Source: a virus
Length of the DNA: 28,291 nucleotides
IMG/VR virus record: IMGVR_UViG_3300035162_004949
Coordinates: 1 to 28,291 of that record
Direction: 5' to 3' (one strand)
Part shown: piece after piece, positions 2,224 through 20,100 of the stretch
Layout: each line of letters opens with the position of its first letter
Numbering within the stretch: position 1 is the stretch's first letter
Position numbers and translations under genes: made by a program
The notes under the pieces: model-generated
The model's database searches: none
What the model was told of the DNA's origin: nothing
Seen by the model: the letters and a program-made list of their open reading frames with translations, nothing else

Positions 2224-2265
2224 TATCCTGGTTTCTGGTTTGGGATATATAAACAAATCAGGATA
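2224..2265 (+). promoter_or_regulatory. Hairpin ending 3 nt before the amidoligase start codon
   Basis: The left arm 2224-2234 (TATCCTGGTTT) pairs with the right arm 2255-2265 (AAATCAGGATA) over 11 bp with one G-U pair. The 20-base loop contains TATATAAA at 2246-2253. No U-tract follows, so it is not a classic terminator. The stem ends three bases before the ATG at 2269 and would obstruct initiation on read-through RNA. Confidence 0.6.
2246..2253 (+). promoter_or_regulatory. Candidate late promoter octamer TATATAAA inside hairpin loop
   Basis: The decamer ATATATAAAC at 2245-2254 is identical to that at 646-655. If it acts as a -10 element like T4 TATAAATA, transcription would start near 2259, inside the right arm of the 2224-2265 hairpin. 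The resulting RNA would lack the left arm and have a leader of about 10 bases before ATG 2269. Confidence 0.35.
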
Positions 2266-2268
2266 AAT

Positions 2269-3567
2269 ATGTATTCTAATGAACAACTTAATGCTATACA
2301 TTCTTCAAAGATAGGTTTTGAATTTGAGTTCTTTTCAAATGAAAACCTTGATGCTACAAAGGATGATTTAGCGCGAGCTTTAAATAAAGCAATTAGAGTA
2401 GAAGAAAAGGCTCATAGCGACTTTACTCCTACTGAAACTACCTTTAAATTAGAACCAGATAATTCCGGTGGTACTGGAATGATCGAATTAGTAACCGGGC
2501 CATTGCCATTTGTCGAGGCTAAATTAATTATGGCTAAAACTCTAAAATGGATTAGAGAAAATGGAAAGACTAATGACAGATGCTCTATCCATGTTAACAT
2601 TGCTTTTGATGGGAAAAAACTAGGGCCTATTGTTAATATGTCTAAATTAGATATCGGCAAATTTGTACTTAACTTTGATGAGAATAAAGTATATGAAGCA
2701 TTTCCAAATAGAAGAGATTCAGTATACGCAAAATCAATAAAATTTATTGTGCCATTAAGCGGTATGACTCAATCATCACCAGAAAAAAATCTTTGGAAAA
2801 ACTATATGTTTGTCAAAGAAAAATATTACGGTATTAATTTTGGAAAGGTGGCTAAAGGTTATATTGAATTTAGATATTTAGGAGGTAAGGATTATGAAAA
2901 GAAATATTCTACTATTCTTTCAATGACTGAGCATTTTATTACTTCATTATATGAAACTTTAGTTAATCCGAAATATAGTGAATCTGATCTTAAGGTTTTA
3001 GATAAGATTCTAGAAAAGCATAAAACTGTTGTTGAATCTTATAGAACCTATTCTTCATTTAAAGAAAAATTTCCAGACATCCACTTAATGATTGATCTTC
3101 AGACCTATGATCAAATCGTCGAATTGTATTATCCTAAAATTAGAGAAAAGATTTTTGATTTAATTACGAGGGCTGATATGAATAAAGGGTTAATTAATTA
3201 TGATGCTGATACAGGGAAAATACAAATCAAAGATGCTAAGCTAATGAGATGCTTTGAGATAAGTGGTGTTGATATTGTTGATTCAGTTATCCAAGGTAAT
3301 ATTGTTAATTGCGATATCTTTGGTTGTGATTTAAAAAATTCATCTATATTTGAATCTAATCTTTTTGGTGCTACTATTGCTGAAGATTCTAAAATAGAAG
3401 AATCTTATGTAAGCAGAAATGTAATATGCCAAGATAGTTACGTATTTGGTAAAAGAGGAGTATTCAGTGGAGAAATGGAGGGTGGTATTTTTAGACAAGG
3501 CAGAGCAACAGAGCTGGCAAGATTTAGTGATACTACTGAAGTAATAGAAATAGAAAAAATTAAATAA
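2269..3567 (+). CDS. Amidoligase-family enzyme with C-terminal pentapeptide-like beta-helix
   Basis: The N-terminal half matches the putative amidoligase family (Amidoligase_2, COOH-NH2 ligase / glutamine-synthetase-like fold). IGFEFEF at residues 15-21 supplies the paired acidic residues E18 and E20. KLEPDNSG (60-67) with IELVTGPL (72-79) matches the 'D.S....EivS.pl' block. CSIHVNI (105-111) carries the conserved His, and IEFRYLGG (about 199-206) matches the 'vEfR' strand. Members are predicted ATP-dependent ligases that form amide or peptide bonds. From about residue 324 the protein changes to pentapeptide-like repeats (IVNCDIFGCDLKNSSIFESN and on), suggesting a right-handed beta-helix that could bind a partner. 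It starts only 49 bases after the S1-like gene and ends 4 bases before the next gene. The substrate is unknown; a virion protein or host protein are both possible. Confidence 0.75.
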   Translation: MYSNEQLNAIHSSKIGFEFEFFSNENLDATKDDLARALNKAIRVEEKAHSDFTPTETTFKLEPDNSGGTGMIELVTGPLPFVEAKLIMAKTLKWIRENGKTNDRCSIHVNIAFDGKKLGPIVNMSKLDIGKFVLNFDENKVYEAFPNRRDSVYAKSIKFIVPLSGMTQSSPEKNLWKNYMFVKEKYYGINFGKVAKGYIEFRYLGGKDYEKKYSTILSMTEHFITSLYETLVNPKYSESDLKVLDKILEKHKTVVESYRTYSSFKEKFPDIHLMIDLQTYDQIVELYYPKIREKIFDLITRADMNKGLINYDADTGKIQIKDAKLMRCFEISGVDIVDSVIQGNIVNCDIFGCDLKNSSIFESNLFGATIAEDSKIEESYVSRNVICQDSYVFGKRGVFSGEMEGGIFRQGRATELARFSDTTEVIEIEKIK

Positions 3568-3571
3568 AGAT

Positions 3572-4438
3572 ATGGCTAGTAGTAAAAGTTGGTGTAACCC
3601 TGATTCACAGGAATGTTTAGACGCACTCATAAAGGAAATAAATGATGATCTAACTGTTGGGTGCCAAATACCTTTCACAGTACCTAAGAAAGAACTTGCT
3701 CATATTATTAGCAGGGCAAAAGATTACTTTTATAAAATATATGAGGATAGTGTTGAAGAAATGTTTATTGCATTACCTGCATCTGCTTGGGGTGAATCTG
3801 CGTTTAAGCAAGGGATTAGCCACAATAATACAACAGGGGCAACACCTAATGTGTTAACTGAGAGTGATGTTAATAATCCTAGGGGTGTTGTAAAAATGCC
3901 GTCGACTGTTTGGGCTGTTAATAATGTATTTCAAATAAACGGTTTTTCTGGGGAAGATGGTGGGTTTGGTGATAATTCATTTTCTGCTGGAGATGTAGAT
4001 TTTTCATTAGATAAATTTATATACTCTGATGTATATGGTGCAGGTATTGGATCCGAAGACTTAATGTATTATGTAATTAATTCAAAATTCATAGATATGT
4101 CAAGACAAATTTTACAAGCTCAGATATCATATAACTATAATAGACTAACCAAGAAATTTAGATTTATGGGAGAGTTACCTAAAAGGGGTGCATGTATATT
4201 TCAAGTTTATAATACTATTCCTGATTGTGATCTTTTCCAAGATGAAGCATTCATAAGATATTGTTGTGGTATGGCTAAAATTCAATTGGCTAGGATCGTA
4301 GGTACATTCCAATTTAACTTACCTGGTAATATTACGATTAATTATGATTTGATCTCTAGTGAAGGTAGAGAAGAAGTAGATAGAGTAGTCCAAGAGATAA
4401 AGGACGATGAAGGGGTAGATTACTTTTTCACAGGATAA
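3572..4438 (+). CDS. Conserved-looking virion structural protein, function not assigned
   Basis: This 288-aa protein begins four bases after the amidoligase stop, so the two are probably translated together. The N-terminus is helical and charged (about residues 15-65, KKELAHIISRAKDYFYKIYE). It then has strand-like segments (MFIALPAS, VVKMPSTVWAVNNVFQING), an acidic Gly/Asp-rich stretch (about 125-145), and a C-terminal half with FRFMGELPKRGACIFQVY and LPGNITINYDLIS. It has no signal peptide or membrane segment. It contains seven Cys, which is many for this region, two of them adjacent (YCCGMAK). Its position just before gp25- and gp6-like genes argues for a baseplate or neck component. I could not match it to a T4 gene by eye. 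Confidence 0.5.
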   Translation: MASSKSWCNPDSQECLDALIKEINDDLTVGCQIPFTVPKKELAHIISRAKDYFYKIYEDSVEEMFIALPASAWGESAFKQGISHNNTTGATPNVLTESDVNNPRGVVKMPSTVWAVNNVFQINGFSGEDGGFGDNSFSAGDVDFSLDKFIYSDVYGAGIGSEDLMYYVINSKFIDMSRQILQAQISYNYNRLTKKFRFMGELPKRGACIFQVYNTIPDCDLFQDEAFIRYCCGMAKIQLARIVGTFQFNLPGNITINYDLISSEGREEVDRVVQEIKDDEGVDYFFTG

Positions 4439-4467
4439 AATATAATCTAAGACCCTCAAAAAATTTG

Positions 4468-4494
4468 GAGAATATATAATAAAAGAATATTCTC
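4468..4494 (+). promoter_or_regulatory. Hairpin ending 1 nt before the gp25-like start codon
   Basis: The left arm 4468-4475 (GAGAATAT) is perfectly complementary to 4487-4494 (ATATTCTC), giving an 8-bp stem with an 11-base loop. There is no trailing U-tract. The stem abuts the ATG at 4496. The octamer TATATAAT (4473-4480) overlaps the left arm and loop. Confidence 0.5.
4473..4480 (+). promoter_or_regulatory. Candidate late promoter octamer TATATAAT overlapping hairpin
   Basis: A T4-late-like octamer in the gap before the gp25-like gene. A start about six bases downstream (near 4486) would coincide with the beginning of the right arm (4487), giving a short leader of about 10 bases free of the hairpin's left arm. 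It ends 15 bases before the ATG, the same spacing as at 2246-2253. Confidence 0.33.
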
Positions 4495-4495
4495 A

Positions 4496-4861
4496 ATGAT
4501 AAAGGAAATATACAGTAGAGAAGTAGATGCACCAAAGTACAACGATGATATAATTGAGGTGACAGATCAATTACAGCAGCTCATCCTTAAGATAGAGAAT
4601 TGTTTGTTTACAAGACAAGGTGATGTACTAGGTTCTCCTAATATGGGGTGTAATTTAGATGATCTTATCTTCTCTTTAGTTTTAAATGAATCTGTTATTG
4701 CTAAAAAAATTAGTAGCCAGATCCAAACATATTGTTTAAATAGTAGCAGTAGCCAATTTGGTATAGATGTAAGAGTACAATTCTACAGTGTAGTAGAAAG
4801 AAATGGCTGTTTAGTAGATATTTACGTAAATGAGCAAAGAGTCATAGGAGCTTTGTTTTAA
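4496..4861 (+). CDS. Baseplate wedge protein, gp25-like (GPW/gp25 family)
   Basis: This 121-aa protein has the size of T4 gp25 (132 aa) and the GPW/gp25 fold signature. An N-terminal helix (DDIIEVTDQLQQLILKIENC) is followed by LFTRQGDVLGSPNMGCNL at residues about 37-54, matching 'l.t..Ge....p..G..l...lf'. A helix (SVIAKKISSQIQTYC) and C-terminal strands (IDVRVQFYSVVERNGCLVDI) complete the pattern. In T4, gp25 clamps the gp6 dimer and gp53 in the baseplate wedge and starts sheath assembly, and TssE is the type VI secretion equivalent. A gp6-like gene immediately downstream supports the call. The Glu-Pro-Arg motif of TssE/gp25 is not obvious here. The start follows a hairpin at 4468-4494. Confidence 0.82.
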   Translation: MIKEIYSREVDAPKYNDDIIEVTDQLQQLILKIENCLFTRQGDVLGSPNMGCNLDDLIFSLVLNESVIAKKISSQIQTYCLNSSSSQFGIDVRVQFYSVVERNGCLVDIYVNEQRVIGALF

Positions 4862-4875
4862 AAATAAAATAATTA

Positions 4876-6732
4876 ATGTCATTTTTTAGTAAAACCAGAA
4901 TTAAAGCAACAGAGTTATTCTTTGACGCGTTTCAATACTTACAGCGCCAATATGACCAGTCCGGTGAAGTGTTTACACCTGCATCACCATTTGGACAGAT
5001 ACTTACTGTTGTTGCAAATTTAGGCGAGCTTATTTTATTTTATATTGAATCTGTTGCAACAGAATTAAATATTAGCAGAGCAAGAAATATTGAATCAATC
5101 TATGGGTTATCAAGATTAACAGGGCATGATCCTAGTAGAGGAATATCTGCACAAGGAATAATTGGATTAAGATTAAATACATCAGCCGCAAGTTTAGTTG
5201 AAGGAGATTATGTACAAATATTAAATTACTCTGCTGTAGAAGTAGGTCAAAATGGATTACAGTATTTTATAAAATTTGATAGTGATTATATAAGGTTAGA
5301 AAAAACCACAAGGCAATTTGTGAATGTAGAATTAATACAAGGAAAGCGCGAAGACCAGACATTTACTGGTACTGGTGAGCCTTTACAGAGTTATAATTTA
5401 ATAACCAAGGAACCAACAGATCAATATATGGTTGATATCCATGTTGATGGTAAATTATGGAAGAATGTAGATTCTCTATATGATATGAATAATAGAGAAC
5501 AAGCTGCGATGGTAAAAACCGGTGTGAATGGTGGAATAACTTGTTTTTTTGGAAATAATCAATTTGGTCAGCCTCCTGCGTTAGGTTCTATAATTAAAGT
5601 TACTTATGTTAAGACTAGAGGAACTGGTGGAAATATAGGAGGTAATAATCTAGACATTAAGTTTATTGATATAGGAACCGATCCTACTGGACAAGACATA
5701 GATTTAGATCAAGTATTATCATTAAATATTGTAAGAAACCCAATGTTTGGTTCTGATAGTGAAGACCCTTCATTTACTAGATTAATTGCGCCATACCAAA
5801 GTAATTCATTTGTATTAGCTAATCCTAATAATTATATTTATTATTTGAGTAAATATGATTTCTTTTCTTTCGTAGATGCGTATAATACAAAAGACGATCA
5901 GTATTTAGATGATGATAATGTTATATACTTATTTCTTATTCCTGATATTGCAAAGAAGATAACAAGTGATTTAGATTATTTTAGTATACCTGCTAATGAA
6001 TTTACAATGACTGCTGATGAAAAGGAAATGGTATATGATATATTAAATAAAAGTGGAAGACAGCTTGTCACAGCTGAAGTTAGAATTAATGATCCTGTAA
6101 TTAAAAGATATGCATTAAATATTGTTGTAAGATATGTTGAAGGATTTGATAAAGATGCAATACATGCAGAAATAAGAGAGCAACTCAGTACATATTTTAT
6201 ATACATTAACAGAAGAGATAGAATTCCAAGATCAGATATTATTTCAATCGTAGAAAATGTAGATGGTATAGATTCCGTAAATGTGTTCTTTATTTCTGAA
6301 GAAAATGAAAAAGCTATAGCTGAAGGATTTTATGAAGTGCCTGTATATGGAACAGATCCAGTAACAGATCAAAGAGTGCTAATAGAAACTAAAAAAGTAG
6401 AACTTAAGGTAGATGAAGATCCACAATTAGGCTTGGATGAATTTGGCGATGTCGTAATTGGTCCGGAGGAGTTAGCAATTATAAGAGGTGGTTGGGATGA
6501 TAGAAACGAAACTTTTTATGAAGCAATACCTAATAAGAATACTGTAAGTTCTCTTAATATATTCTTTAAAGGAACAATACCAAACAATCTATACAATAAA
6601 ACTCAGCAAACCAAGTTTAATGATCTTAAGAGAAGTAGAGGAACTACAATTGCAACATCAGGTAATTCAAGAAGCACAAATACTGGTAGGCTAAAAGATA
6701 ATCCTACATTAAAAACACTACAGGGAAAGTAA
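4876..6732 (+). CDS. Baseplate wedge protein, gp6-like (baseplate J family)
   Basis: This 618-aa protein is close in size to T4 gp6 (660 aa) and directly follows the gp25-like gene. The N-terminal helices (ATELFFDAFQYL, FGQILTVVANLGELILFYIE) precede SRLTGHDPSRGISAQGIIGL (about residues 75-95), the usual entry into the baseplate J/gp6 core. The segment IPRSDIISIVENVDGIDSVN (about 449-468) matches the conserved C-terminal block of baseplate J-like proteins. The last 150 residues are a family-specific extension that is polar and Thr/Asn/Lys-rich at the end. Gp6 forms the dimeric ring linking wedges in the baseplate. The start is preceded by AAAATAAAATAATTA. The next gene begins one base after the stop codon. 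Confidence 0.8.
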   Translation: MSFFSKTRIKATELFFDAFQYLQRQYDQSGEVFTPASPFGQILTVVANLGELILFYIESVATELNISRARNIESIYGLSRLTGHDPSRGISAQGIIGLRLNTSAASLVEGDYVQILNYSAVEVGQNGLQYFIKFDSDYIRLEKTTRQFVNVELIQGKREDQTFTGTGEPLQSYNLITKEPTDQYMVDIHVDGKLWKNVDSLYDMNNREQAAMVKTGVNGGITCFFGNNQFGQPPALGSIIKVTYVKTRGTGGNIGGNNLDIKFIDIGTDPTGQDIDLDQVLSLNIVRNPMFGSDSEDPSFTRLIAPYQSNSFVLANPNNYIYYLSKYDFFSFVDAYNTKDDQYLDDDNVIYLFLIPDIAKKITSDLDYFSIPANEFTMTADEKEMVYDILNKSGRQLVTAEVRINDPVIKRYALNIVVRYVEGFDKDAIHAEIREQLSTYFIYINRRDRIPRSDIISIVENVDGIDSVNVFFISEENEKAIAEGFYEVPVYGTDPVTDQRVLIETKKVELKVDEDPQLGLDEFGDVVIGPEELAIIRGGWDDRNETFYEAIPNKNTVSSLNIFFKGTIPNNLYNKTQQTKFNDLKRSRGTTIATSGNSRSTNTGRLKDNPTLKTLQGK

Positions 6733-6733
6733 T

Positions 6734-7003
6734 ATGAATAAATTTACGGAGAGAAGAACTGGAATGCCTAGTATCTATAAAGCTACTTATGAGGATGGGT
6801 GGGAGCTTAAAAATTTAGGTAATGATTATAATGAAAATTTAATGAAGAATTCTTTTTCTAATTATATGTTTAGGAATGCAAGGCTTGGTAGTTTTATTGA
6901 ATTTTACTTAAAACCTATTATGACATTTTGGATTAATAAAGTAAAATATTTAAGAATATTTTATAACTTTGGAGTGCCTAAAGATTATCAAAAAATAAAC
7001 TAA
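6734..7003 (+). CDS. Small protein between gp6-like and gp7-like genes, function unknown
   Basis: This 89-aa protein starts one base after the gp6-like stop and ends one base before the next start, so it is almost certainly translated as part of the wedge operon. It is rich in Tyr, Phe, Asn and Lys, with aromatic stretches (GSFIEFYLKPIMTFWINKVK, about residues 55-74). That segment is amphipathic with two Lys and one Glu, so a true membrane span is unlikely. No known family was recognised. The packed position suggests a small wedge accessory or assembly factor, which is inference only. Confidence 0.6.
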   Translation: MNKFTERRTGMPSIYKATYEDGWELKNLGNDYNENLMKNSFSNYMFRNARLGSFIEFYLKPIMTFWINKVKYLRIFYNFGVPKDYQKIN

Positions 7004-7004
7004 G

Positions 7005-10000
7005 ATGGCTAATAATTGGCAACATTTAAATTTCTTTGACAAGAACGGCAAGTATTATAATTTTGATTATGATTATTCTTCTGATAAATGGACAGGTACT
7101 GTTTACTTGCCTGAAGTTTCTATAGGTTTATTTGAAGTTGGGCAGTTATTTATATTAGAGGAATTCATTGATAAAAATACTAATGCAAAGAAATTTGGAT
7201 TCCCACATGGCATAGAAGTTGCAACTGGGACAACTGGATCTACAAATGGAGTCTGTAATTGGAATGCAGAATGGCAAACTACCGATCCTACTGAAATATT
7301 TTTATTTCAATTTAATATGAATTTTAATTCTGGTACCCAGACATCTTTGGAATTAGAGCCTGATGGGCCGCCACTACAAGTCATAACCGAATTAGAAATA
7401 CCACTAGGATCTGATCCTACTGAAACCGTTAACCCAGAAGGGTATACTATTACTGATATTATTGAATCCGAGGCATTGCAGATTAACTTTGCGATTAGGT
7501 CAGAAACAGAAAATACGTTTAAGCGAACATTATTAATTAAAGATGATTGTACTGGTAATGTTATTGCTGAAATATTAGTATGGGGTGAGACTGTCGGTGA
7601 GGATGAAAGATTACGAATCATGACTCAAAATATGGGCTATAATATTTTAGAGTCTGATAGTAGTGTATTTAGAGATACTAACATAAAAGAGATATTACCT
7701 AACTTTGAAGAAGTCAATTTAAAGAGAAAGGAAATAATGATGGAGGGTTCTAATATCTATCCTTTTATCGGTTCTTATAAAGGTTTAATAAATGCAATAA
7801 AATTCTTTGGTTATGATACATTAAAGGTTAAAGAATTTTGGAGAAATGTAGACGCAAATTCTCCAATGTTTGGTAAGTATATACAAAGTAATGCTATTTC
7901 AATACTTGATCCTATTGTTCAATTAAATGATAAAGAAATTACATTACCTAATAAGAGATTTAGAAAAACAAGTTTATTTAGTTTAGTGTATAAAATTAAT
8001 GAAATTGTACCTGATAAATTTACTGATGAAGATTTACCTATAACAGAAGAGGTTTATGATTTTACTATTGAAGAAATTTTAATTAAGTTATTTGGATTAA
8101 AGAAAAAGTTAGAAAATGAATTTTTACCACTTAATGCTAGAATAAAAGATATAACAGGAGAAGCAGATTTCTTTGGGTTACTTGAAGTGGTAAATACAAA
8201 TAGTAGAAATAAGAAAGATGAAATAGTTGCAGGTATAGATACTAATTTTAAATTGTCTACTGATGATTGTATCTACATGGACGATCTCAGGTCATTTAGT
8301 TCATTTTGTTTAGCATCAGAAGCAATAGTAAATGAAGCTATATTAAATTTTTGTAATGCATATATTTCCCCATTGACTGGAAACGAAGCAATTGGTAGAA
8401 ATTTAGTACTAGGGCCAATTTCAACAGGTGAAGTTTATCCACCAGCACCAGTAGGACCAGATCCTAATAGTCCACTAGGTTCATTGTATGATGGTAATAA
8501 TACTACAGTATCTGCTTTGGCTGATGCGTTTCTTGCTTACTTTACAAGATATGCCCCTAATCTTAGTAGGGTCGGTGCTTGGCCAGATGGAAAGTCTTCA
8601 TATTATTTACCGGACAAACCTGGCATACCTGTTGGTGCAATGACGGTTTTAGAAAACACTTCATTTAATAATATAACTTGGAATAATGTAGATTCAACAT
8701 GGGATCAGCTAAATAATGCAAATACATTTTTTACATTTGACATTGATCCACAGGGTGTTGCTGCAGGGGATGTTTTTACTGTTAATGATCCTGGTACAAA
8801 TACGGGTGCTACTTACACTGCACAGGTAGGTGATACTGATACAGAAGTTAGAGATGCTTTATACAATCAATTATCTGCACTAAAGAATTCATTTACTGAA
8901 CCGTGGGTGTATTTTGATATATCTAAAGTCAACGTAGTCACTGGGGATGTTATTAGGCTGTTTGGGCAGAACCTAAATAAACTAAAAGTTACATGCGACT
9001 CTATATATGGTTCACAATTATTATTTAATCAATTACCTGGAGAGACTCTGTTTACATGGGGCGGTATAGAAAAAGGAAACTTTGATGAGATAGAGTGGAC
9101 TATTTATAAAGATGCTAATGATAATACTCCTGCATATTATAAAGTATATAGAGGCCCTCTTTCCCAATATAATAAATTACCATTAATACTACCTTATGTT
9201 GGAACATATAGTGTAGAAATGAAGCTATATGACTTGTATAACAATATATCATCTAATGTTAAACCTGATTTTATTTGTGTTGATAACAGAGAGGTAGAAT
9301 ATTCCGGGTGGTATCAATCAAGAAAATCTAATTATACCTGGTCCAGTGAAGGTAAATATTTATGGAATGATTATGGTTCATTGTGGAATTTACCTATTGA
9401 ACCTGCTATAACATGGGATGAGGAAACTCCTGGCTTATATTCTTCACTAGATAGAGTAAATGCTATCCTTAATAATTTTGGATTAGGTACTTCACCAGAT
9501 TTTCAATTATTAAATTACCAGGATGACGGTAAAGCTAGTTTTTCTGGACCTTATAGATGGGATAATTTAAATACAGGTGGGTGGAACGATACTTATCATC
9601 TATGGTGGGATATGACTAGCACAACTGGTGATACTCCTGCATTTTTTCAATTTAAAGAAGTTGAGCCAGAAACTTATCTTAAGATAACCGATGTTAATGG
9701 CGAAACTGCAGAACATTATTTTGATTCAACTACCACTACATTAGCACAAGCAGCAGCAGGATTAAATACTAGTACAAATAGAATTATTAATAAGTATGTT
9801 TATAACGTAGTTTATGACGCGAGTAGTAATCAAAAATTTGTACAGGCAGTGTGTAGGTATTTTGGGGTACATGGCGATTGGAAGTATCTTGATATTGTAT
9901 ATGCTAATGGTGATAGAGCATGCCCATCAACTGGTGTAACTGGTGCGCCGTTCCCAACAGGGGCGACAGGCTGTCCTAGTTTAATTTATAGGAAAGGTTT

Positions 10001-10295
10001 AAGCAAATCCAGTAACCCAACTTGGAATACTGCTAAATTTATAAACAATGGTAAGACAATGCCAAAAATGACATGGTTTATGTTTGTTTATGATAAGTGT
10101 AAGATTCCAGGTAAAGCCAATCCTAGATGGATTATCAAAAATACAACTAACTCTAAGATAGCTGATATATATTTTGATAGTAAATACTTAACATATCTGT
10201 TTAAGGAATCTGGTAAATATGAGATTACTCTTGAACTCACAGATACAAATGGGAATAAATATAAAAAGGGTAGAAATATCCTAGTAATAAAATAA
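7005..10295 (+). CDS. Large baseplate wedge protein, gp7-like, with PKD/Ig-like domains
   Basis: This 1096-aa protein lies downstream of gp6-like, as T4 gp7 (1032 aa) does. The N-terminal third contains strands and an alternating helical part with IYPFIGSYKGLINAIKFFGY (about residues 248-267), a block typical of large wedge/tail proteins in T4-like phages. The middle has a Gly-Thr-Asp strand region (VFTVNDPGTNTGATYTAQVG, about 590-610). PKD/Ig-like domains appear around 685-765 (WTIYKDANDNTPAYYKVYRG, YVGTYSVEMKLYDLYNN) and at the C-terminus, about 1014-1096 (FKESGKYEITLELTDTNGNK). PKD-like domains often decorate virion surfaces. A gp7-like wedge role is inferred from order and size; a different peripheral baseplate protein remains possible. 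Confidence 0.55.
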   Translation: MANNWQHLNFFDKNGKYYNFDYDYSSDKWTGTVYLPEVSIGLFEVGQLFILEEFIDKNTNAKKFGFPHGIEVATGTTGSTNGVCNWNAEWQTTDPTEIFLFQFNMNFNSGTQTSLELEPDGPPLQVITELEIPLGSDPTETVNPEGYTITDIIESEALQINFAIRSETENTFKRTLLIKDDCTGNVIAEILVWGETVGEDERLRIMTQNMGYNILESDSSVFRDTNIKEILPNFEEVNLKRKEIMMEGSNIYPFIGSYKGLINAIKFFGYDTLKVKEFWRNVDANSPMFGKYIQSNAISILDPIVQLNDKEITLPNKRFRKTSLFSLVYKINEIVPDKFTDEDLPITEEVYDFTIEEILIKLFGLKKKLENEFLPLNARIKDITGEADFFGLLEVVNTNSRNKKDEIVAGIDTNFKLSTDDCIYMDDLRSFSSFCLASEAIVNEAILNFCNAYISPLTGNEAIGRNLVLGPISTGEVYPPAPVGPDPNSPLGSLYDGNNTTVSALADAFLAYFTRYAPNLSRVGAWPDGKSSYYLPDKPGIPVGAMTVLENTSFNNITWNNVDSTWDQLNNANTFFTFDIDPQGVAAGDVFTVNDPGTNTGATYTAQVGDTDTEVRDALYNQLSALKNSFTEPWVYFDISKVNVVTGDVIRLFGQNLNKLKVTCDSIYGSQLLFNQLPGETLFTWGGIEKGNFDEIEWTIYKDANDNTPAYYKVYRGPLSQYNKLPLILPYVGTYSVEMKLYDLYNNISSNVKPDFICVDNREVEYSGWYQSRKSNYTWSSEGKYLWNDYGSLWNLPIEPAITWDEETPGLYSSLDRVNAILNNFGLGTSPDFQLLNYQDDGKASFSGPYRWDNLNTGGWNDTYHLWWDMTSTTGDTPAFFQFKEVEPETYLKITDVNGETAEHYFDSTTTTLAQAAAGLNTSTNRIINKYVYNVVYDASSNQKFVQAVCRYFGVHGDWKYLDIVYANGDRACPSTGVTGAPFPTGATGCPSLIYRKGLSKSSNPTWNTAKFINNGKTMPKMTWFMFVYDKCKIPGKANPRWIIKNTTNSKIADIYFDSKYLTYLFKESGKYEITLELTDTNGNKYKKGRNILVIK

Positions 10296-10318
10296 CTAAT
10301 GAAAAATAAAATTAAAAC

Positions 10319-10972
10319 ATGGCTATATCAGTAACAGAAATTCTTGGGACAGATTCATTATCCGGCTCTAGGTTAGTATTGAATGACAACTTCAATATTT
10401 TAACAAGTGAAATCAATGCAATGGAGGTTTACATTAATCCAACGGCAGGTACAATTAACAATCTTAATAATCTTCAAACCGAGGCGTTAAGAGTTGGCTT
10501 AAGCACTATATTATTAGATATTAATGCTTCTACTTTTGATGTTCTAACTAACGTTAATATGACAGGTAACCTTAACCTTAACGGAGGAGGTTTATTTAGA
10601 AATGACGTAAATGTAACCACTTTAAATGATACTACTGCTGCAGGCAGTAGTTTAATTAATGTAGGTGGTACTGGAACAATACCAGGCTCGAGTATATATA
10701 GAGTTGGTAATTCATTAGGGACAACACTTACACTCCAGGTATATAATGGGGCAATTGGTCAAGAAATATTCTTTACTTATTCAGAAGCACAAACTGGTGT
10801 AATTAGTATTGCTAGCCCAACAGGATCATTAGTATTACCTGGTACTACGCCTAATAACACTAAAATTAATTTAGCTGCTATAGGGCAAACTGCACACTTA
10901 TTATGTGTTGATCGTGGAGATGGAAATGGGGTTTGGTTCTTGGTTGGTGGAGCTGGGTATACAATAGCTTAA
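10319..10972 (+). CDS. Short fibre-like / baseplate decoration protein
   Basis: This 217-aa protein opens with MAISVTEILGTDSLSGSRLV and continues LNDNFNILTSEIN. The same spacing of conserved residues (MAI, L, D, S, N.NF, L) opens the collagen-like fibre at 21740, so both probably share a virion-attachment sequence. A short helical part (about 20-65) is followed by a Gly/Thr/Asn-rich beta region (VNMTGNLNLNGGG, about 80-92) and a C-terminal strand-rich head ending in GVWFLVGGAGYTIA. The pattern is that of a small trimeric fibre or decoration protein. There is no signal peptide. It lies between gp7-like and large coiled-coil structural genes. Confidence 0.55.
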   Translation: MAISVTEILGTDSLSGSRLVLNDNFNILTSEINAMEVYINPTAGTINNLNNLQTEALRVGLSTILLDINASTFDVLTNVNMTGNLNLNGGGLFRNDVNVTTLNDTTAAGSSLINVGGTGTIPGSSIYRVGNSLGTTLTLQVYNGAIGQEIFFTYSEAQTGVISIASPTGSLVLPGTTPNNTKINLAAIGQTAHLLCVDRGDGNGVWFLVGGAGYTIA

Positions 10973-10990
10973 TAAAAAGAAAACAGATAC

Positions 10991-13108
10991 ATGGCAACTA
11001 CGCCTTTAATTAAAACGCCGCAGGCTGATGGAGGTACATTTTATACCTTCTCTTCTTCTGCGAGAGATCTTTCAAAGACTCTTAATAATGATCAACTTAA
11101 ATTGGTCTTTTCTAAGTTTGTGCTTTTAAATATTCCAGACTTTGATGGGCTTCCTTACCCAGGTTTTGGATCAAATCAGAATTACATGCAATTTGATACT
11201 ATTGATGGTATGATTGCTAGTGGCGGGAATGCAGCTGATCCTAATGTTAACTTTACACAAAGTCTTCAGAATTACGCACTGAACTTAGAAGAGTTAATAA
11301 TTAGTGATACTTCTTATGATAATACAACACAGAGATCTGTTGCAGAGCGAGTATTCTTTAAATGGATGAAAGAGACTGGTTCGATGAGGTTTAGACCTGC
11401 TACTAATCTTGAAAAAAATCCTGGAGTTTCTCGGCCTTTATTTGTAGAAGAGGATACTGTGCTAACCGGGAGTACTCAGTATAGAAGAGTTGTACAATAT
11501 GTTGGTGATATTGATATTGTAAATAATGTAGATAAAGCAGGAGAAGCTTATACTGAACTTTATATTAACGTGCCTACTGAAGTTGGTGGAACTCCAACTA
11601 TTTTATTTGATTCTATTTCTGATGCCAATTATCAACCAAGTTTAACAATACGAGGCAAAGATGAATATATTTTAGGTCGTGGTATTAATACTATACACCC
11701 ACAAGGATTAGACACTTTCGCATTCTATGATTATGACCAGCCTTTAGCTGGCCCTCCAATAAATGGTGGGTATACTGATCCTAATGCAAATTGGATGAAT
11801 GAACCTAACCCTCCTACTTCGGTAGATTCTTATTTTACTGAACCTATCACCTTCACAAATTCTGCTAGTGTACCTATAAGAAAATATCCTGCAGATTACG
11901 GTAACCCTGCAAATTTTAGTGGTGTTACTTATGTAAGATCTGAATTAGATGGAATCAGTGTTGATTTTACACCAAACGATTATGAGCAAATTATAACCGA
12001 TCCTAGTATTTCAACGATTCCACAATTTAATGGAACTGATCTATCTAATACTTTTGAATTTAATGCGGTATTAGTTTACTATGATATGGTAGACACTAGT
12101 AATGCTGCAAATACAGTTACAAATCTTTATGGTATTTTACTTGTAGATAATATTACACCAACCACGGATGGTGGCTTCATTCAGAGATATCCTAAATATA
12201 AACCTAATAAGGTAACAGGACAAAATGGAAACAGTTATGGATTTAAAATCAATTTACGGTTTGATGCTTCACCTGGAACATCAGGTATAGACACAATCGT
12301 CAATGACTATAATACATTTTCAATGCAGCTCTTTAGTGAAGCAACTGCACAATTACAAGAATCTGCAAAAATATTTCAGAACCAACAGTTAGAAATATCT
12401 ACATTAGATCAAAAGGTTCAAGTATTAGAAAATCAAATAACTAATGTTGCTGATGTGACTTCTCTACAAGCACAAATCACCAGTGTACAAAATCAACTTG
12501 ATAATGCAAATCTTGCATTTGCAAACGGTACAGTATTACTTGATCTTATTGCAAAAAATTCAGATGAGATACAAGGGTTGGCTCAAGGTAACGTACCAAT
12601 TTCGTTACAATATAATACAGATGTAGTTAGGCAAGGGACAGGTATTACAGTAGATACTAATACACCTAATATAATTACTATTTCATTAGATTCACAAGAA
12701 TATAATTTTAATGTACCTTTTAATAGCGATGAGGTACAAATAACAACAACTAATCCGTTAAACTTAAATCAAGCAATACCCCAAGTGTTTACTTCATTAA
12801 GAACTTATACTAACATGTTAAGATTAGATACAGTTAATGAGGCCGGAGGGGACTTAAATATTTATATTAATGATACTAGTGTACAGTGGAAAACTGGGCA
12901 GGTTTTAAGACTAGTATTTAATAATGAGTTAAATATAGGCTCTAGGAATATTAGAATTTGGACTGATGCAACAGATAGGTTAGGTGCAGGTTCTTATGGA
13001 ATATCTATAGGTGTAATTACTAATGCTGATATATCTAAAAATCCTATTATTGAATTTATATGTACTGAGCAAGGTGTGTTAGATTTTGTATATGATATAA
13101 TTAAATAA
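10991..13108 (+). CDS. Virion structural protein with central coiled coil (baseplate/fibre)
   Basis: This 705-aa protein has three parts. Residues 1-435 are a strand-rich region beginning ATTPLIKTPQADGGTFYTFS, an opening I associate with structural proteins of T4-like phages from marine samples. Residues about 440-535 form a coiled coil (LQESAKIFQNQQLEISTLDQ, VQVLENQITNV, LQAQITSVQNQL), probably trimeric. Residues about 535-705 are a compact beta-rich C-terminal domain (GITVDTNTPNIITISLDSQE to the end). The layout globular base, coiled-coil shaft, C-terminal head suits a fibre or a peripheral baseplate protein that holds a fibre. It could correspond in role to T4 gp8-gp10, but I see no residue-level match. 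Confidence 0.55.
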   Translation: MATTPLIKTPQADGGTFYTFSSSARDLSKTLNNDQLKLVFSKFVLLNIPDFDGLPYPGFGSNQNYMQFDTIDGMIASGGNAADPNVNFTQSLQNYALNLEELIISDTSYDNTTQRSVAERVFFKWMKETGSMRFRPATNLEKNPGVSRPLFVEEDTVLTGSTQYRRVVQYVGDIDIVNNVDKAGEAYTELYINVPTEVGGTPTILFDSISDANYQPSLTIRGKDEYILGRGINTIHPQGLDTFAFYDYDQPLAGPPINGGYTDPNANWMNEPNPPTSVDSYFTEPITFTNSASVPIRKYPADYGNPANFSGVTYVRSELDGISVDFTPNDYEQIITDPSISTIPQFNGTDLSNTFEFNAVLVYYDMVDTSNAANTVTNLYGILLVDNITPTTDGGFIQRYPKYKPNKVTGQNGNSYGFKINLRFDASPGTSGIDTIVNDYNTFSMQLFSEATAQLQESAKIFQNQQLEISTLDQKVQVLENQITNVADVTSLQAQITSVQNQLDNANLAFANGTVLLDLIAKNSDEIQGLAQGNVPISLQYNTDVVRQGTGITVDTNTPNIITISLDSQEYNFNVPFNSDEVQITTTNPLNLNQAIPQVFTSLRTYTNMLRLDTVNEAGGDLNIYINDTSVQWKTGQVLRLVFNNELNIGSRNIRIWTDATDRLGAGSYGISIGVITNADISKNPIIEFICTEQGVLDFVYDIIK

Positions 13109-13133
13109 ATAATAAAAGAAAGAATACAAATAG

Positions 13134-16100
13134 ATGGCTAAAAATAATTCAATATCAACACTTTTACCTGAACTTCTTAGACTTTTTAATAATTCTTTAG
13201 AAAGTTTTGAAAAGGTTAATCAGGCCATAACTTCTAGTAATGAGTCGGTTACAATAAATATTCAAAATGATAACGGAACAAATTCTAGAGTTACTATTCC
13301 TAGTTTTGGCTTTCTTAAAAACTCTGTTGATAGACTACAAACTAATATTGATACTATTACAAACTTAAATGGTAGTAATAGCTCTATTAGGCTAGCCGAT
13401 GGTACATTTAGAAAATTAGTATTAGCAAAACTTCCTACAGAAGCACAGGATTTAAATTCTATAAATTCTGTTGAAAACTTTAACATTAAACCTAATTGGT
13501 TTTTTGAGGAATTAATTAATCCACTTCTTTATGTATCTTTTGATTTAACAGGCCAAGTGCCTATTGATACTGAAAGAGCTATAATCCAAAGGTATATTTT
13601 AAATACTAATACTCAAACTAAAGTTAATTACTTCGTAGATAATTTTGAAGGTAGAGCTGATATAAGTTATAATGATTTCTTACAGCAAATAGTTGAAAGA
13701 AATATTTCATATGTATTAGATGAAGCAGTAGTAGACCTACCGCCTAGAATAAAAAGATATACTGGAAACTTTAGTGTACTGAGAATATCAGATGCTACTG
13801 TTACAGAGGAAATAAACGGTGTTAGCGTCACATCTCAAAGAAAACAATATAAACTAAATAAGATATTTTATACTGACTCAGAGGCTGATTTTGATGATAC
13901 TATTCAGCTATCTGTTGGTGATAGTTTAGAGGTTATAAGTAATCCTATTAATACAAGATATAGAATAATAAAATTAGATTCTAGTACTAACACGGTTATT
14001 TTAGAATTAGTTGAAGGATCAGATCCTATAAGAATCGGTTCTGATATTTTAAAAATATCATCGTCATTAGAAGATAATATACAAGTTGATGTTACTGTTG
14101 GGTTTAATGAAAGATGCGTAACATTTGTTAAGCCTATAGATCCTGATTCAAAAATACCTTCAGTGAATTGGTCTCCAGGTAGTGCATTTTATACAAATAC
14201 ATTGACTACTGTAAACTCTAACGGTGCTGAGCAAACTTTATCTGAATATTATCAACAAAGTGCAATTGACTTTGGTTCAATGTTACTTTCGTTTGCAGAT
14301 GATAAAATACCGACAACAAGAGATGGCCTTACACCTAATTCCCCAACAGTAAATGTAGAAGATTTCAAAGTTAAAATAATTAATCAGCAGGTTAGTGAAT
14401 CCCCAGCGATTATACAATTAACTGATTTAAGTAGCCAAAAAAATACTATTGAATCAACGCTGAAAGAATTAGATGGATCTATTAGACAAAACAGAACTAA
14501 AATACAAACTACTAATTACTCTACTGAAGTTGAACGTGATGCTGATATAAATGCTCTACAAGGGACAATAACAGAGAGATCTTCACAAGCTGAATTATAT
14601 TCATCAGTAGTAAAAGAAATTGATGCTAATGCTAAAGACAATTCAGTTTCAAGTATTTCTCCTAAATATAGAGCAAGAGGGTTTTGGGCAATGCCAGAAG
14701 AAAAGTCAACGCCTGCAACCGGATCACAGGCTATAATTAAATTTAAAATAAGATACCGTTATCTTTCAGATGATGGTGCTGCAAATCCAGTCGATCAGTT
14801 TAGCTTTAATGATGGTAGTGGAAAAAGCGAAGGCGCATTTTCAAATTATATTATTATTGAAAGTACGCTAAGGCCGAGAGTAAAAAACCCTGTGACTGAG
14901 GTTTATGAATGGGTAGAGATAGATGCTAACAATGCAGAGTCGGTCAATATTAATCAATTAGACATACCGATAAGAAAGGGTGAAAAGGTAGAGGTGCAAG
15001 TAAAATCAATTAGTGAAGCAGGCTGGCCATCTAATCCATTGGAAGGTCCATGGTCTGATCCTGTAATAATTTCATTCCCTGCCGATCTTAGTTCTGATAA
15101 TGCAGTAGAAGCTATTATCAATCAGAATCAACAAGACTTAGCCAAAGTTTCATTAGAACAAGATTTAAATGCAAAAGGTATAGATGAACATTTAAGTAGT
15201 TCATTTGTTGCAAACGAAACTTATTTTGCGCACTCTGCTCCAGTTATTGCATCAGGATTTTTATCAGAAAACCAAACTCCTATTGATTTATTTAGTAAAC
15301 TAAATGAGATGCAAGCTAGGTTAGATGAATTTTCTGAAATACTAAGAAATGCACAAGGGGAATTAGTAGTAACTTTAATTGATGATCAAGGTAATGTTAC
15401 AAATCTTAATAGAAATGCAGTAACTAAAGTTTTTGCAGGTTTCTATTCACAGGAGGTATCCAACCTAGACGATCCTCGTGGAGCTGTTATATCCAAAACA
15501 TTTTTTATTAATTTAGCAAACCGAGAACAAACTGGTTTAAGATTAGTTTCAAGAATAGCTGGTAACCGACAGAGGATGGTTAAACAATCTGAAAACCCTG
15601 GATATTTAATAGGCGATGTTACTTCAGGCTCTACAATATTACCTGCTACTTATTCATGGTTAGATAATAGCTCAAATAATCAAAGTAATGGTAGAGCAAC
15701 ATATACTGCAGACGATTCTGATTATAACACCGTTAGAAAATATGATTTGGCACCAATCCTTTTAACAAACCCGACAGTTGATTCTACATGGAGCTATGGG
15801 CAAACAACTTCAATTGCACCATATCAATCTACACAAAACAAAAATCAATTTATAAGTAGCAGATACAGCGATGTTTCATCTGAAGAGAATTTTTATAGTT
15901 ATGTAAATCCAGATAATGATTATACTTTTAATTTAGATACTGTGGAGAATTTTTATGGTAGAACCGGGTTTATAAGTACTTCAACTGCTGGTGAATTTAT
16001 ATGGGGCGGTGGTTTTGATGCAGGTGGGAAACCTACCACTGCACTTACATACGATAACCTAGGAATTGATGATACTATAGAGATACAGATTACACACCCA

Positions 16101-17021
16101 TATATACAAAACTTTGAAACTTATAGACAAGCATACATCCAAGCAACAGGAGATACTGTTACATTAGGTACCCTTACAGATGGACCATTGCCGATTGATC
16201 CCCCACTACCTGGAATTCCTCAATCAAATTGTACATCAAGTGGAAATGGTACTGCTAATATTTTATTTAGACATTCAAAGTTTATACCTCTGCAGTCTGA
16301 TCAAAAATATGGCAAACAGCAGGCGATATATTTAAATGAAAATACAGTAAGTCTTAATGCTCTTGCTACAGCATCGCCATTTTTATCAGTACAATGGGAT
16401 AGCGGGCAGACTTTACAGGCTAGCCCTAGTATTATTTATATACCTACTCTATCTACAGCAGGCTCAGTAGTCAATAGTGGAAAAGGGTATGAGAGAAATG
16501 CAAAAACTTCATTTGATACATTTGATCAGTACACACTAGGTAAAAAATCGTGTGGTTCTTATTTATTTATGTCTGCTGATGATCATCAAGGCTTACAAGT
16601 AGAGGGTGATTCTATTCAATCTTCTATAGTAATACAATTTGGCCAGCAGAATTCAGTAAATATACCGATAGTGTTTCAATATAGAATGACTGATTACTTT
16701 GGGACTGGCTCGGGGTCTAATGGTGGAATAGGAAATATTGCAGGGGATTCAACTGGTTCTACTGTTAATGTTACTTATTCTAAGAAAATTGGATTTGATG
16801 TATATCCTAATAACCAAGATGTTTATCAATATGATATTGAAGTATTTTCTAAATATAGGTCTGATAATCTTAACATAGATGTATTCCCATCAAAAACTGT
16901 AACTAAAGGTTTAAATGATTTAGAAAAAGTATTAGCTAAGCTTAGCCCAAGTGTAACTGCAACTAGAGTAAATCAGATTGTTAGAGGCAATGCTAGTGAC
17001 GGTGGGGTTAATAAAGGATAA
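13134..17021 (+). CDS. Very large virion structural protein with coiled coils and FnIII-like domain
   Basis: This 1295-aa protein begins with a helical N-terminus (LLPELLRLFNNSLESFEKVN) and then strand-rich domains up to about residue 425. A coiled coil spans about 428-510 (LSSQKNTIESTLKELDGSIR). Residues about 511-650 look like a fibronectin-III/Ig-like domain (IIKFKIRYRYLSDDG, KGEKVEVQVKSISEAGWPS, GPWSDPVIISFP). A second helical part follows (about 650-745, LFSKLNEMQARLDEFSEILR). The C-terminal 550 residues are beta-rich with many Tyr, Ser, Thr and Asn, like receptor-facing fibre regions. A baseplate-periphery or long-fibre role is inferred. The gene is followed by one of the longer gaps (17022-17109), which carries a strong hairpin. 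Confidence 0.5.
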   Translation: MAKNNSISTLLPELLRLFNNSLESFEKVNQAITSSNESVTINIQNDNGTNSRVTIPSFGFLKNSVDRLQTNIDTITNLNGSNSSIRLADGTFRKLVLAKLPTEAQDLNSINSVENFNIKPNWFFEELINPLLYVSFDLTGQVPIDTERAIIQRYILNTNTQTKVNYFVDNFEGRADISYNDFLQQIVERNISYVLDEAVVDLPPRIKRYTGNFSVLRISDATVTEEINGVSVTSQRKQYKLNKIFYTDSEADFDDTIQLSVGDSLEVISNPINTRYRIIKLDSSTNTVILELVEGSDPIRIGSDILKISSSLEDNIQVDVTVGFNERCVTFVKPIDPDSKIPSVNWSPGSAFYTNTLTTVNSNGAEQTLSEYYQQSAIDFGSMLLSFADDKIPTTRDGLTPNSPTVNVEDFKVKIINQQVSESPAIIQLTDLSSQKNTIESTLKELDGSIRQNRTKIQTTNYSTEVERDADINALQGTITERSSQAELYSSVVKEIDANAKDNSVSSISPKYRARGFWAMPEEKSTPATGSQAIIKFKIRYRYLSDDGAANPVDQFSFNDGSGKSEGAFSNYIIIESTLRPRVKNPVTEVYEWVEIDANNAESVNINQLDIPIRKGEKVEVQVKSISEAGWPSNPLEGPWSDPVIISFPADLSSDNAVEAIINQNQQDLAKVSLEQDLNAKGIDEHLSSSFVANETYFAHSAPVIASGFLSENQTPIDLFSKLNEMQARLDEFSEILRNAQGELVVTLIDDQGNVTNLNRNAVTKVFAGFYSQEVSNLDDPRGAVISKTFFINLANREQTGLRLVSRIAGNRQRMVKQSENPGYLIGDVTSGSTILPATYSWLDNSSNNQSNGRATYTADDSDYNTVRKYDLAPILLTNPTVDSTWSYGQTTSIAPYQSTQNKNQFISSRYSDVSSEENFYSYVNPDNDYTFNLDTVENFYGRTGFISTSTAGEFIWGGGFDAGGKPTTALTYDNLGIDDTIEIQITHPYIQNFETYRQAYIQATGDTVTLGTLTDGPLPIDPPLPGIPQSNCTSSGNGTANILFRHSKFIPLQSDQKYGKQQAIYLNENTVSLNALATASPFLSVQWDSGQTLQASPSIIYIPTLSTAGSVVNSGKGYERNAKTSFDTFDQYTLGKKSCGSYLFMSADDHQGLQVEGDSIQSSIVIQFGQQNSVNIPIVFQYRMTDYFGTGSGSNGGIGNIAGDSTGSTVNVTYSKKIGFDVYPNNQDVYQYDIEVFSKYRSDNLNIDVFPSKTVTKGLNDLEKVLAKLSPSVTATRVNQIVRGNASDGGVNKG

Positions 17022-17058
17022 TCATAATAAGGTTCTGTTGATGCTACTAAATAAGTAC

Positions 17059-17105
17059 TCAATTTTCACTACCTATGGTGAATAAATAAAAAAAGTGAAA
17101 ATTGA
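17059..17105 (+). promoter_or_regulatory. Perfect 12-bp hairpin ending 4 nt before the ATG of the giant gene
   Basis: Arms 17059-17070 (TCAATTTTCACT) and 17094-17105 (AGTGAAAATTGA) are perfectly complementary over 12 bp with a 23-base loop. A second GTGAA copy at 17078-17082 can pair with TTCAC at 17065-17069, giving a smaller competing hairpin. No U-tract follows the right arm. The loop contains AATAAATA at 17081-17088. Confidence 0.65.
17081..17088 (+). promoter_or_regulatory. Candidate late promoter octamer AATAAATA inside hairpin loop
   Basis: It matches the T4 late consensus TATAAATA at 7 of 8 positions. A start six bases downstream would be at 17094, exactly the first base of the hairpin's right arm, leaving a leader of about 16 bases to ATG 17110. 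The call rests on this positional match with the other two hairpins. Confidence 0.3.
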
Positions 17106-17109
17106 ATTA

Positions 17110-20100
17110 ATGGAAAACCTTTTTGACAAAGCATCGTATAGTATAATTAGAACTAACCCTAAGTTAACAGGTAATGTTAAGCTTGTTAGTAATGGGAATG
17201 ATTTATATCTAGAGTCTTTTAGTGCAAATACTGAATTGGCTTCTTCTACATTTAAAGCATTCAAAGTAAGTGGAGATGATACTTATGATAGGGATGTTTG
17301 GCGATTTTTCCAAGGTGGAAAATTTCCTGCTAATTTAGCGTATGAAGTATTTCAAGAATATCGCGATATATCAGTATTATCACAGTACCAAAACCAGTTT
17401 GAAATGTTTTATTCTGCAGGTACTAGATCAGTTTCGTCTAATGCATATTCTGAGGATCTAGGTATACTTTCGCCGATTTGGTTAAATGAGCAAATCCCTA
17501 ATAATTTTGTAATTTTTAGAATTGACAATCCGGCTGCAGTAAATAATATAAATGAATCTTTACAAAATAATAATTATTTAGATGCCCAAACATCTGGAGA
17601 ATTTACAAAAAATGTTTTAGAAAATTGTACTGCAATAAAAACTTTTGATTTATCAAGTAATAGTTTATTAGGATCTTACTTAAGAAATTATAGAAACCAA
17701 GAAAATTTTCCAAAATCACCATTAAACATTTCATGGAGAAAGGATGAACCTATTCAATGGTCAGGTATTAATTATACACAAGGTGGGTTTACTCAGTCTG
17801 GGAGTTTTTCGTATGATGGTTTAGTTACACAAGATACTACAATTATAAATAATGAATATTTTTTTACCGAAGGGTTTGAAAGAAATAACATTCTATTAGC
17901 TAATTTAATTAACATGGAGTTTTTATTCTCTGATGTTAATGCTGCTGATTATTCTATAAACAGATATTTCGGTTTATATGTTAACGAAGTAGAGGAAGGT
18001 TTGTTTGATATATCTGGTGAAGGGTTTTACAAAAACACAGAGAAAACTCAATTACCTAAAATTAATACTATAACTGAAGTATCAGAACAGCTTAATACAC
18101 CATTTGAAATGACTAATGAAAATGGTATGTTAATATATTTAGACCCTGCCAAAACAACAACAATTACTGGTTTACCTACGCCAAGTAGAGTAAACGAAGT
18201 AGAGTCTATTTTTTATGTAAAAGACAAGAATAGCAATTTTCACACTATTAAGAAAGGATCACAATGGGGAGAAAATCAAATAAGGTTATTTGATACTAAA
18301 ATTGATATATCAAAACTCGCAGGGTTTAAACAACCCGATACATATGCAAATGCAGAAATAATAAATAAAAGAGGTAAAGCTACTTGCTATTTTAAAATTA
18401 AAGATGAAATTGTAGATGGTTTTACAATTACTTTATATGATGGTCTAAATATAACAGGGCAAATTGCAGCAAGTTCAATCGCTTCGCCAATACCTGGTAA
18501 AAACAATGGACAATTCTTTAACCCAACAGGGACGCTTAATGAAATCGCAATAGCAATCACATCGGCAATAAACGATGGAATATCTGAAGAAAAAAGATTT
18601 TTTAAAGCAACTTACAATAATGATATAGTCTATTTGGAATCTAGATTTAGCGGTGATAGGTTTAATAGGCTTAATTTTGAACTAGGATATTCAGAGTACC
18701 CTTTAATGGTAAATAGTATTAATACATATCCTACAACATCTTTAATAAAAACCAAGAATAATTTTACTGGTGGCAATGACTTCACTGGTGCTTTGCTTAA
18801 AGTTGCTAATGGTGACCAAGAAAGATTTAGTATAGGTAATTACATTCAGTCTAAAGATGGGTTTGCTGAAATTAAAGGTTGGGTTCCATATTTAGAAGAG
18901 CCTATAAAAAATGATAGTGGTAATGTTATAGGATATAATGATATTGACAATTTTGTTATAATAACATTAAATGATGATCAGATAGAAATTACTAGGAGTG
19001 GCCAAGTTGCTTTATATTCTGATTATAGGCCATCATTTGGTAGATTTTCAATATTCCCGATAAGAGATTTTGATTTTGATTTCTATAGTGATATGTATAG
19101 TCAGTTAGGCGAATTGAATTATGAATATGCGCAATATAATAAAAAAGGAGTAAAGGGTGTATACTATATAAATGTTAGTACCAACCCAGATATTAGAAAC
19201 TTTTATGATGATGGCGGTTTTGCTAATTTAATAGGGTTGTTAAAGAACTCTGATCCTGATAGTACATTTGATAATGTTATCTCTTCAGAATATGAAAGAC
19301 TTGAGGAAAACTTTTTAAAACAGCAGGCAGTAGCGTCAAGAGTGATTCCTTATATTAATAAATGGTCATGGATAAATGATGGTAAAAATGTTAGAAATTT
19401 ACCATATAGCTTAAATCTTAGTGAAGCATTTGGCCAAAATAATTTTGCACCATCAAAATATGCAATTGGCCAAGATTCACAAGGATTCACACACGAATGG
19501 TATTACTTATGCGAATTTCCATATTACTTTGATAATAATGCCATAAAGAGTTCTTGGAGTTATATTGATACCGCACCTAGCGATACTATAGAAAACAATC
19601 CAGCTACTGGTAGTGTATATACGCCTGGTACATTTCAAAAAATAGATAAAGATTATTTTAATGATTATTTTATTATTGATAAGTTTACAACAGGAGGTAC
19701 TATTAATTTAATTGATAGACAATTAAGATATGGTAGATTTAGTGGAGGTGACGAAAAGAATTTCTCCGAAACATTTTTAAGAGGTGTTAGAATAATTGCA
19801 AAAACTAAAGCAAACCCTGAGGTTAGACCTAATTTTAACGCCAGGTCATTAAAATATGTTAATGATGGTTTATTTAATGAATATCGTTTTTCTGTAATGC
19901 TAATCCCTAATGCTCCTAGTAAAGCTGAAACAGAAATTAAGTTTATTAAAAATGATAAATGGAAAACTGTTGTTATGCTTGTCTTTTTAGCTTTAGATAA
20001 TCCGTGTATTAATGATGGTGATCAAAGTATAGATAGAACTACATTATATTCATATGAAAGCGATTATAAAACAGTTTCATGTGAGCCTGTGAAAAATAAT

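Follow-up and report, generated by a model that had tools for sequence, protein, structure and literature searches.

Why should three genes in a single phage gene block each begin directly behind a hairpin that encloses or overlaps an AT-rich, promoter-like element? The question is raised by the IMG/VR virus record IMGVR_UViG_3300035162_004949 (positions 1 to 28,291, the whole stretch of DNA analysed and hereafter the window), where such hairpins close just ahead of the start codons at 2269, 4496 and 17110 (sites 1, 2 and 3). We propose that these are start-codon hairpins with a built-in phage late promoter, a switch in the style of bacteriophage T4, and put the probability of this reading at roughly 0.7. 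Each of the three tail-baseplate-region genes of this marine giant-phage lineage would then probably be translated only from RNA made at its own late promoter. In T4 gene e (also in soc and 49) the read-through RNA folds over the translation start while the late promoter overlaps the 5' arm of the hairpin, so that late RNA lacks this arm (PMC3014915). The promoter-in-hairpin arrangement is likewise described for T4 I-TevI, I-TevII, I-TevIII and segB and for Aeh1 mobE (PMC2988022). Both papers agree with the precedent, gene e and I-TevI, that a first-pass annotation of the window had drawn on.

We infer the transcription start, the use of the element by a gp55-like sigma, the late timing and the translation block from the analysis of the sequence, as follows. 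Read-through RNA arriving from upstream would contain both arms, fold, and hide the A-rich leader up to 1–4 nt before the AUG, so that ribosomes would load poorly; at site 1 the fold would additionally hide an AGGA. The enclosed promoter (GAATAWATAA) would probably be read by host RNA polymerase carrying the phage gp55-like sigma, and the late RNA would begin at or shortly before the right arm, lacking the left arm and leaving the leader open. The gene's own late promoter would thereby set timing and dose apart from upstream transcription. By analogy, the T4-style switch is the best explanation, on five lines of evidence: the element itself, the ranking of the hairpins, covariation at site 3, recurrence of the arrangement in the complete relative LR756500, and a gp55-like sigma. 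The parts of the three sites are:

2224..2234, plus strand: site 1 left arm, TATCCTGGTTT (sequence reading and folding)
2243..2252, plus strand: site 1 late-promoter-like element, GGATATATAA, which is GAATATATAA in relatives (comparison with relatives)
2255..2265, plus strand: site 1 right arm, AAATCAGGATA, including AGGA 5 nt before the ATG; predicted +1 at 2257
4468..4475, plus strand: site 2 left arm, GAGAATAT, overlapping the element
4470..4479, plus strand: site 2 late-promoter-like element, GAATATATAA (motif counts)
4487..4494, plus strand: site 2 right arm, ATATTCTC; predicted +1 at 4484
17059..17070, plus strand: site 3 left arm, TCAATTTTCACT (sequence reading and folding)
17080..17089, plus strand: site 3 late-promoter-like element, GAATAAATAA (motif counts)
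17094..17105, plus strand: site 3 right arm, AGTGAAAATTGA; predicted +1 at 17094

The site 1 hairpin contains 11 pairs including one G-U (minimum free energy of -12.8 kcal/mol) and stops 3 nt before the ATG, the site 2 hairpin contains 8 pairs (-5.2 kcal/mol) and stops 1 nt before, and the site 3 hairpin contains 12 pairs (-11.3 kcal/mol) and stops 4 nt before. Reading and folding are thus in accord with the hairpins first described (11, 8 and 12 bp, ending 3, 1 and 4 bases before an ATG). Because relatives show a conserved element GAATAWATAA, the octamer comparable to that of T4 is AATAWATA, located at 2244-2251 (GATATATA in the window), 4471-4478 and 17081-17088. This register coincides with the octamer proposed in the first-pass annotation at site 3 and differs by 2 nt from those proposed at sites 1 and 2. 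With T4 octamer-to-start spacing the predicted start at 17094 is kept, while the other two move from 2259 and 4486 to 2257 and 4484. In every case the left arm lies entirely upstream of the predicted start, which would leave leaders of 12 nt (site 1), 12 nt (site 2) and 16 nt (site 3), so the geometry behind the claim that late RNA would lack the left arm survives the shift in register. When all starts in the window are ranked by their leader-closing stem within a 45-nt interval, sites 1 and 2 take the top two places, in this order; part of the left arm of site 3 falls outside that interval. The left arm of site 1 carries a 7-nt tandem copy of CTGGTTT (2224-2241) that is found in the window only among the relatives read, and the stem still forms.

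The right arm of site 1 includes the AGGA, and sites 2 and 3 have no Shine-Dalgarno (SD) sequence. SD-like words occur upstream of 34 of 367 starts, compared with 17 in shuffles, and since they are rare in these phages the stems would mainly hide an A-rich leader. Intrinsic terminators do not account for the stems: none of 5 terminator-like hits falls at the sites, where the stems precede A-rich sequence and an ATG rather than a T run. A scan against Rfam gave no family match at gathering score.

Is the enclosed element a promoter? Relatives were collected as 103 loci from two protein searches. The gaps at the three sites are conserved among them, most of all in the AT element and the bases that follow (GAATATATAAACAAATCAGGA, GAATATATAATAAAAGAATA and GAATAAATAAAAAAAGTGAA). 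GAATAWATAA lies almost exclusively on the coding strand in 20 relatives, for example 9:1 in the longest (81 kb; 1:0 for the reversed-pattern control). In a de novo count of words upstream of 349 starts the element 8-mers AATATATA, ATATATAA and AATAAATA rank top, enriched 15-17 fold, and the most frequent distance from element to ATG is 16 nt. No conserved hexamer was seen upstream of the element, as in T4 late promoters. A single AT octamer means little here, as TATAAATA with at most one mismatch occurs 90 times on the plus and 76 times on the minus strand of the window. The literal T4 motif TATAAATA was rejected as the element of the sites, its exact copies in the window (3 plus, 4 minus) all lying elsewhere. 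The element thus resembles the T4 late promoter class in being TATAAATA-like, in having no -35 and in lying upstream of putative late genes. The late promoters originally suggested for the window gain support from this recurrent, directional element, from the missing upstream hexamer and, in LR756500, from the gp55-like sigma and the division of gene classes between two elements described below. T4 late promoters, recognised by gp55, are similar in consisting of one short AT element before structural genes, with a gp55-like sigma present in LR756500 and in marine contigs; here, however, the consensus is GAATAWATAA or GATATATAA followed by A-rich sequence, and recognition by a gp55-like protein is putative. 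A further recurring word, TCTAAGAC, is found upstream of the element in two gaps of relatives (window gap 4439-4467, and upstream of 33009 in the 81-kb relative G001).

Are the hairpins peculiar to these sites? All occurrences of AATAWATAA that precede an ATG by 8-36 nt, in the window as well as in its relatives, were surveyed without favouring the three sites, giving 535 sites (loci on the same contig overlap) that were grouped by downstream protein; 18 groups with at least 2 distinct sequences were kept. As the left arm of site 2 overlaps the element, tests of the enclosing hairpin at this site count the element in. The strongest enclosing hairpins among the 18 groups are exactly those of the three sites (means of -11.9, -9.1 and -11.4 kcal/mol; z of -2.7, -2.2 and -2.1), while the remaining 15 groups have means of -2.5 to -7.8 kcal/mol and z of -1.0 to +1.3. 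The recurrence of the hairpin geometry is not due to chance.

The arms are maintained by pairing most clearly at site 3. Exchanging arms between relatives raised the summed energy from -123.1 kcal/mol (native, 11 right-arm types) to -89.8 ± 8.2 kcal/mol (p=1e-4), and the swap was repeated with 10 right-arm types. In the alignment of this site 83.9% of cells pair, versus 40-59% when partners are slid by 1-3 columns, and both sides have changed in four pairs. At site 1 the arms are nearly invariant apart from one compensatory pair (A-U to U-A, in L042 and L048). Most relatives retain the stem of site 2; it is re-formed with G-U pairs in L042, and in L047 and L048 a different stem (TCTGAAAGC/GCTTTCAGA) surrounds the same element.

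The same arrangement recurs in LR756500, which is complete (462 kb) and was surveyed over its whole sequence. Its top upstream word is GATATATA (25 versus 2 on the opposite strand), and a further upstream word is ATATTTAC (28 versus 2). Genes following the late element GATATATAA show matches to tail sheath, tail tube, baseplate wedge, head closure, head maturation protease and homing endonucleases, and those following TATATTTAC to NAD synthetase, clamp loader, helicase loader, NUDIX and MazG proteins. From their sequence contexts, the elements probably represent a late class plus an earlier promoter class; the second-class consensus is near AAAACTTTnTTATTATATTTAC, before replication and metabolism genes (L161-L170). 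Stems of -9 kcal/mol or lower occur at 7 of 57 late-element starts, whereas swapping the arms gives an expectation of 0.9 (at most 5 in 5,000 permutations); the rate is 12.3%, versus 1.2% of 569 other starts. The right arm often takes in the ATG itself. Mobile-endonuclease-like genes follow five of the seven strong hairpins (one GIY-YIG, one DUF7487/TnsA-like, one weakly matching DUF7487, and two placed with these by sequence similarity only), all near-palindromic, ATG-closing structures around the late element, for example CATGATATATAAAATAAATATATCATG:

L161:39890-41179, mobile-endonuclease-like gene
L162:36454-37149, mobile-endonuclease-like gene
L163:16283-17098, mobile-endonuclease-like gene
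L167:4180-5403, mobile-endonuclease-like gene
L168:7320-8330, mobile-endonuclease-like gene

The earlier proposal that read-through RNA folds over the start codon is supported by the upkeep of the hairpin at site 3, less strongly by the changes at sites 1 and 2, and by this recurrence. Between the LR756500 orthologues of the genes that flank site 3 there is a terminator-like stem (AGTCTCT/AGGGACT, then TTTTTT; L146:33824-33931).

A candidate for the late sigma is the gp55-like protein of LR756500 (phrog_234, E 1.7e-12), which has relatives in Lak phages and cyanophages. Alignment of gp55-like proteins sets apart a distinct group from 18 marine contigs (L174-L191). Several of these contigs come from metagenomes that also supplied structural relatives of the window (3300025886, 3300025108, 3300020176, 3300037991 and 3300035698), and in the longer contigs GAATATATAA is again present and strand-specific. 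The gp55-like protein on the 76,973-base contig that contains L183 has 121 aa, and its gene starts near base 33972. A search of 12 structural fragments, which are incomplete genomes, found no gp55, and DNA overlap between the gp55 contigs and the structural contigs is limited to shared repeats. In the Lak phage contig L171 (Lak-C1) the gp55-like gene has three in-frame stops in table 11 and reads through in table 15.

Several observations weigh against the switch. No contig carries both the gp55-like gene and the gene block of the window, and for this reason it is only probable that the gp55-like sigma belongs to the window's own phage group. The site 2 stem is weak (-5.2 kcal/mol), is made mostly of A-U pairs, and is lost in L041. 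The comparison of gaps for compensatory changes, which the first-pass annotation had recommended, is borne out by covariation at site 3 and one pair at site 1, but the arm swaps gave no covariation signal at site 1 (p=0.38, where the arms hardly vary) or at site 2 (p=0.34, where cases are mixed). At site 3 the left arm also pairs with GGTGAA directly before the element (17064-17082), in relatives too, and this competing hairpin may form first during transcription. In LR756500 the orthologous starts of the genes behind sites 1 and 3 lack a clear enclosing hairpin, and at the gp25 start it is missing altogether; a hairpin like that of site 2 precedes the gp6-like gene instead, which suggests that stems move between genes. 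Finally, the genes upstream are themselves part of the structural block, which leaves no obvious need to block early read-through. The RNA that is blocked would then not have to be "early", and the switch may separate dose among late genes, not only early from late.

The alternative that survives best, although we consider it unlikely, is that the late promoters are real and the hairpins act otherwise (RNA protection, processing, or uncoupling from upstream ribosomes) with no translation switch. The genes are packed on one strand, where several post-transcriptional roles are possible, and the leaders are A-rich and mostly free of SD sequences, so the hidden part is no obvious ribosome site. 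However, at each of the three sites the right arm stops 1-4 nt short of the ATG, in LR756500 it often takes in the ATG, the high stem rate in LR756500 is confined to element-bearing starts, and a promoter that removes an arm would be pointless for a processing site.

Much less probable is the idea that the inverted repeats are DNA operators, with a dimeric regulator bound to a palindrome around the promoter. Late promoters can carry operators, as I-TevI represses its own late promoter in T4 through an overlapping operator (PMC2988022). The arm sequences, however, are wholly different between the sites, which have the element and the geometry in common, whereas a single regulator would conserve sequence; because the arms share no sequence, an RNA structure is favoured over one DNA-binding protein. 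The site 3 arms moreover change together, with G-U pairs among the changes, and a G-U pair is present at site 1.

Equally improbable is an activating role for the stem at site 2, like that of the split ribosome-binding site of T4 gene 25, where a stem brings a distant SD nearer the AUG and enhances translation. Here too a stem precedes a gp25-type gene, and in the window GGAG lies at the foot of the left arm. This GGAG is restricted to the window and a near-identical contig, however, with TAGAG or AAGAG in other relatives, so the distant SD of the T4 gene is not conserved at site 2. In addition the stem ends 1 nt before the AUG, the T4 arrangement is absent from more distant T4-related phages (PMC3014915), and sites 1 and 3 share the architecture though their genes are not gp25 genes. 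Least probable of all is that the hairpins arose by chance in a genome of 32% GC whose AT element is partly self-complementary: AT octamers are common and site 2, the least secure, uses the element as part of an arm, but the hairpins are conserved over dozens of relatives, are the top three of 18 groups, covary at site 3 and are enriched over swapped arms in LR756500.

The T4-style switch remains the favoured reading, and its likeness to gene e is close in two respects: the stem closes on the start in the predicted read-through fold (conserved, and covarying at site 3), and the late promoter is placed so that RNA from the predicted start would lack the left arm. In contrast to gene e, the genes are those of a baseplate block rather than lysis, the element is GAATAWATAA rather than TATAAATA, and for the most part no SD is hidden. 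The homing-endonuclease hairpins of T4 and Aeh1 find their parallel in LR756500, where most strong hairpins precede mobile-endonuclease-like genes, whereas none of the three window genes can be recognised as an endonuclease, and these phages stand far apart from T4.

The 28,291-base window (32% GC) has all its major genes on the same strand. Among its products are matches to a head-tail adaptor, to baseplate wedge proteins of the gp25 and gp6 types and, in the same block, to large proteins whose function is unknown, and it is a fragment of the baseplate gene block of a large Bacteroidota-type myovirus. The closest record is LR756500, and Lak phages of Prevotella and phages of Tenacibaculum and Chryseobacterium are more distant; these nearest records indicate a large myovirus whose host is probably a member of the Bacteroidota. 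The genes behind the three sites are:

2269..3567, plus strand: gene 1, after site 1; 432 aa, weak match to phrog_33777 (unknown function)
4496..4861, plus strand: gene 2, after site 2; gp25-like baseplate wedge subunit (phrog_43, E 5e-4)
17110..21729, plus strand: gene 3, after site 3; 1539 aa, large tail/baseplate-block protein (phrog_31887, unknown function)

A Pfam search with gene 1 gave no domain match. Immediately upstream of site 1, the structural-block protein encoded at 1047-2219 contains S1 RNA-binding domains (PF00575), and G001 encodes a protein at 15839-16663 that we judge by eye to be DnaJ-like. The group may correspond to the aquatic "moraphages", for which Flavobacteriia hosts have been predicted (PMC12619734), a candidate assignment only.

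In the literature searched we found no description of the promoters of this giant-phage group or of such hairpins. For annotation, the analysis supplies a probable late promoter consensus and, for LR756500, what is probably a second and earlier class of promoter. That the hairpins are linked to mobile endonucleases hints at repeated evolution of the device. We give about even odds to the broader view that promoter-in-hairpin switches are a general, evolvable device of large Bacteroidota phages. On this view the late element stays fixed while the stems around it appear, are exchanged and pass from gene to gene, so that selected structural and mobile-endonuclease genes would be translated only from RNA of their own late promoter, in hosts that make very little use of SD sequences. 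If the switch is real, it would extend a textbook mechanism of T4 to distant and widespread giant phages, and to tail-baseplate rather than lysis genes.

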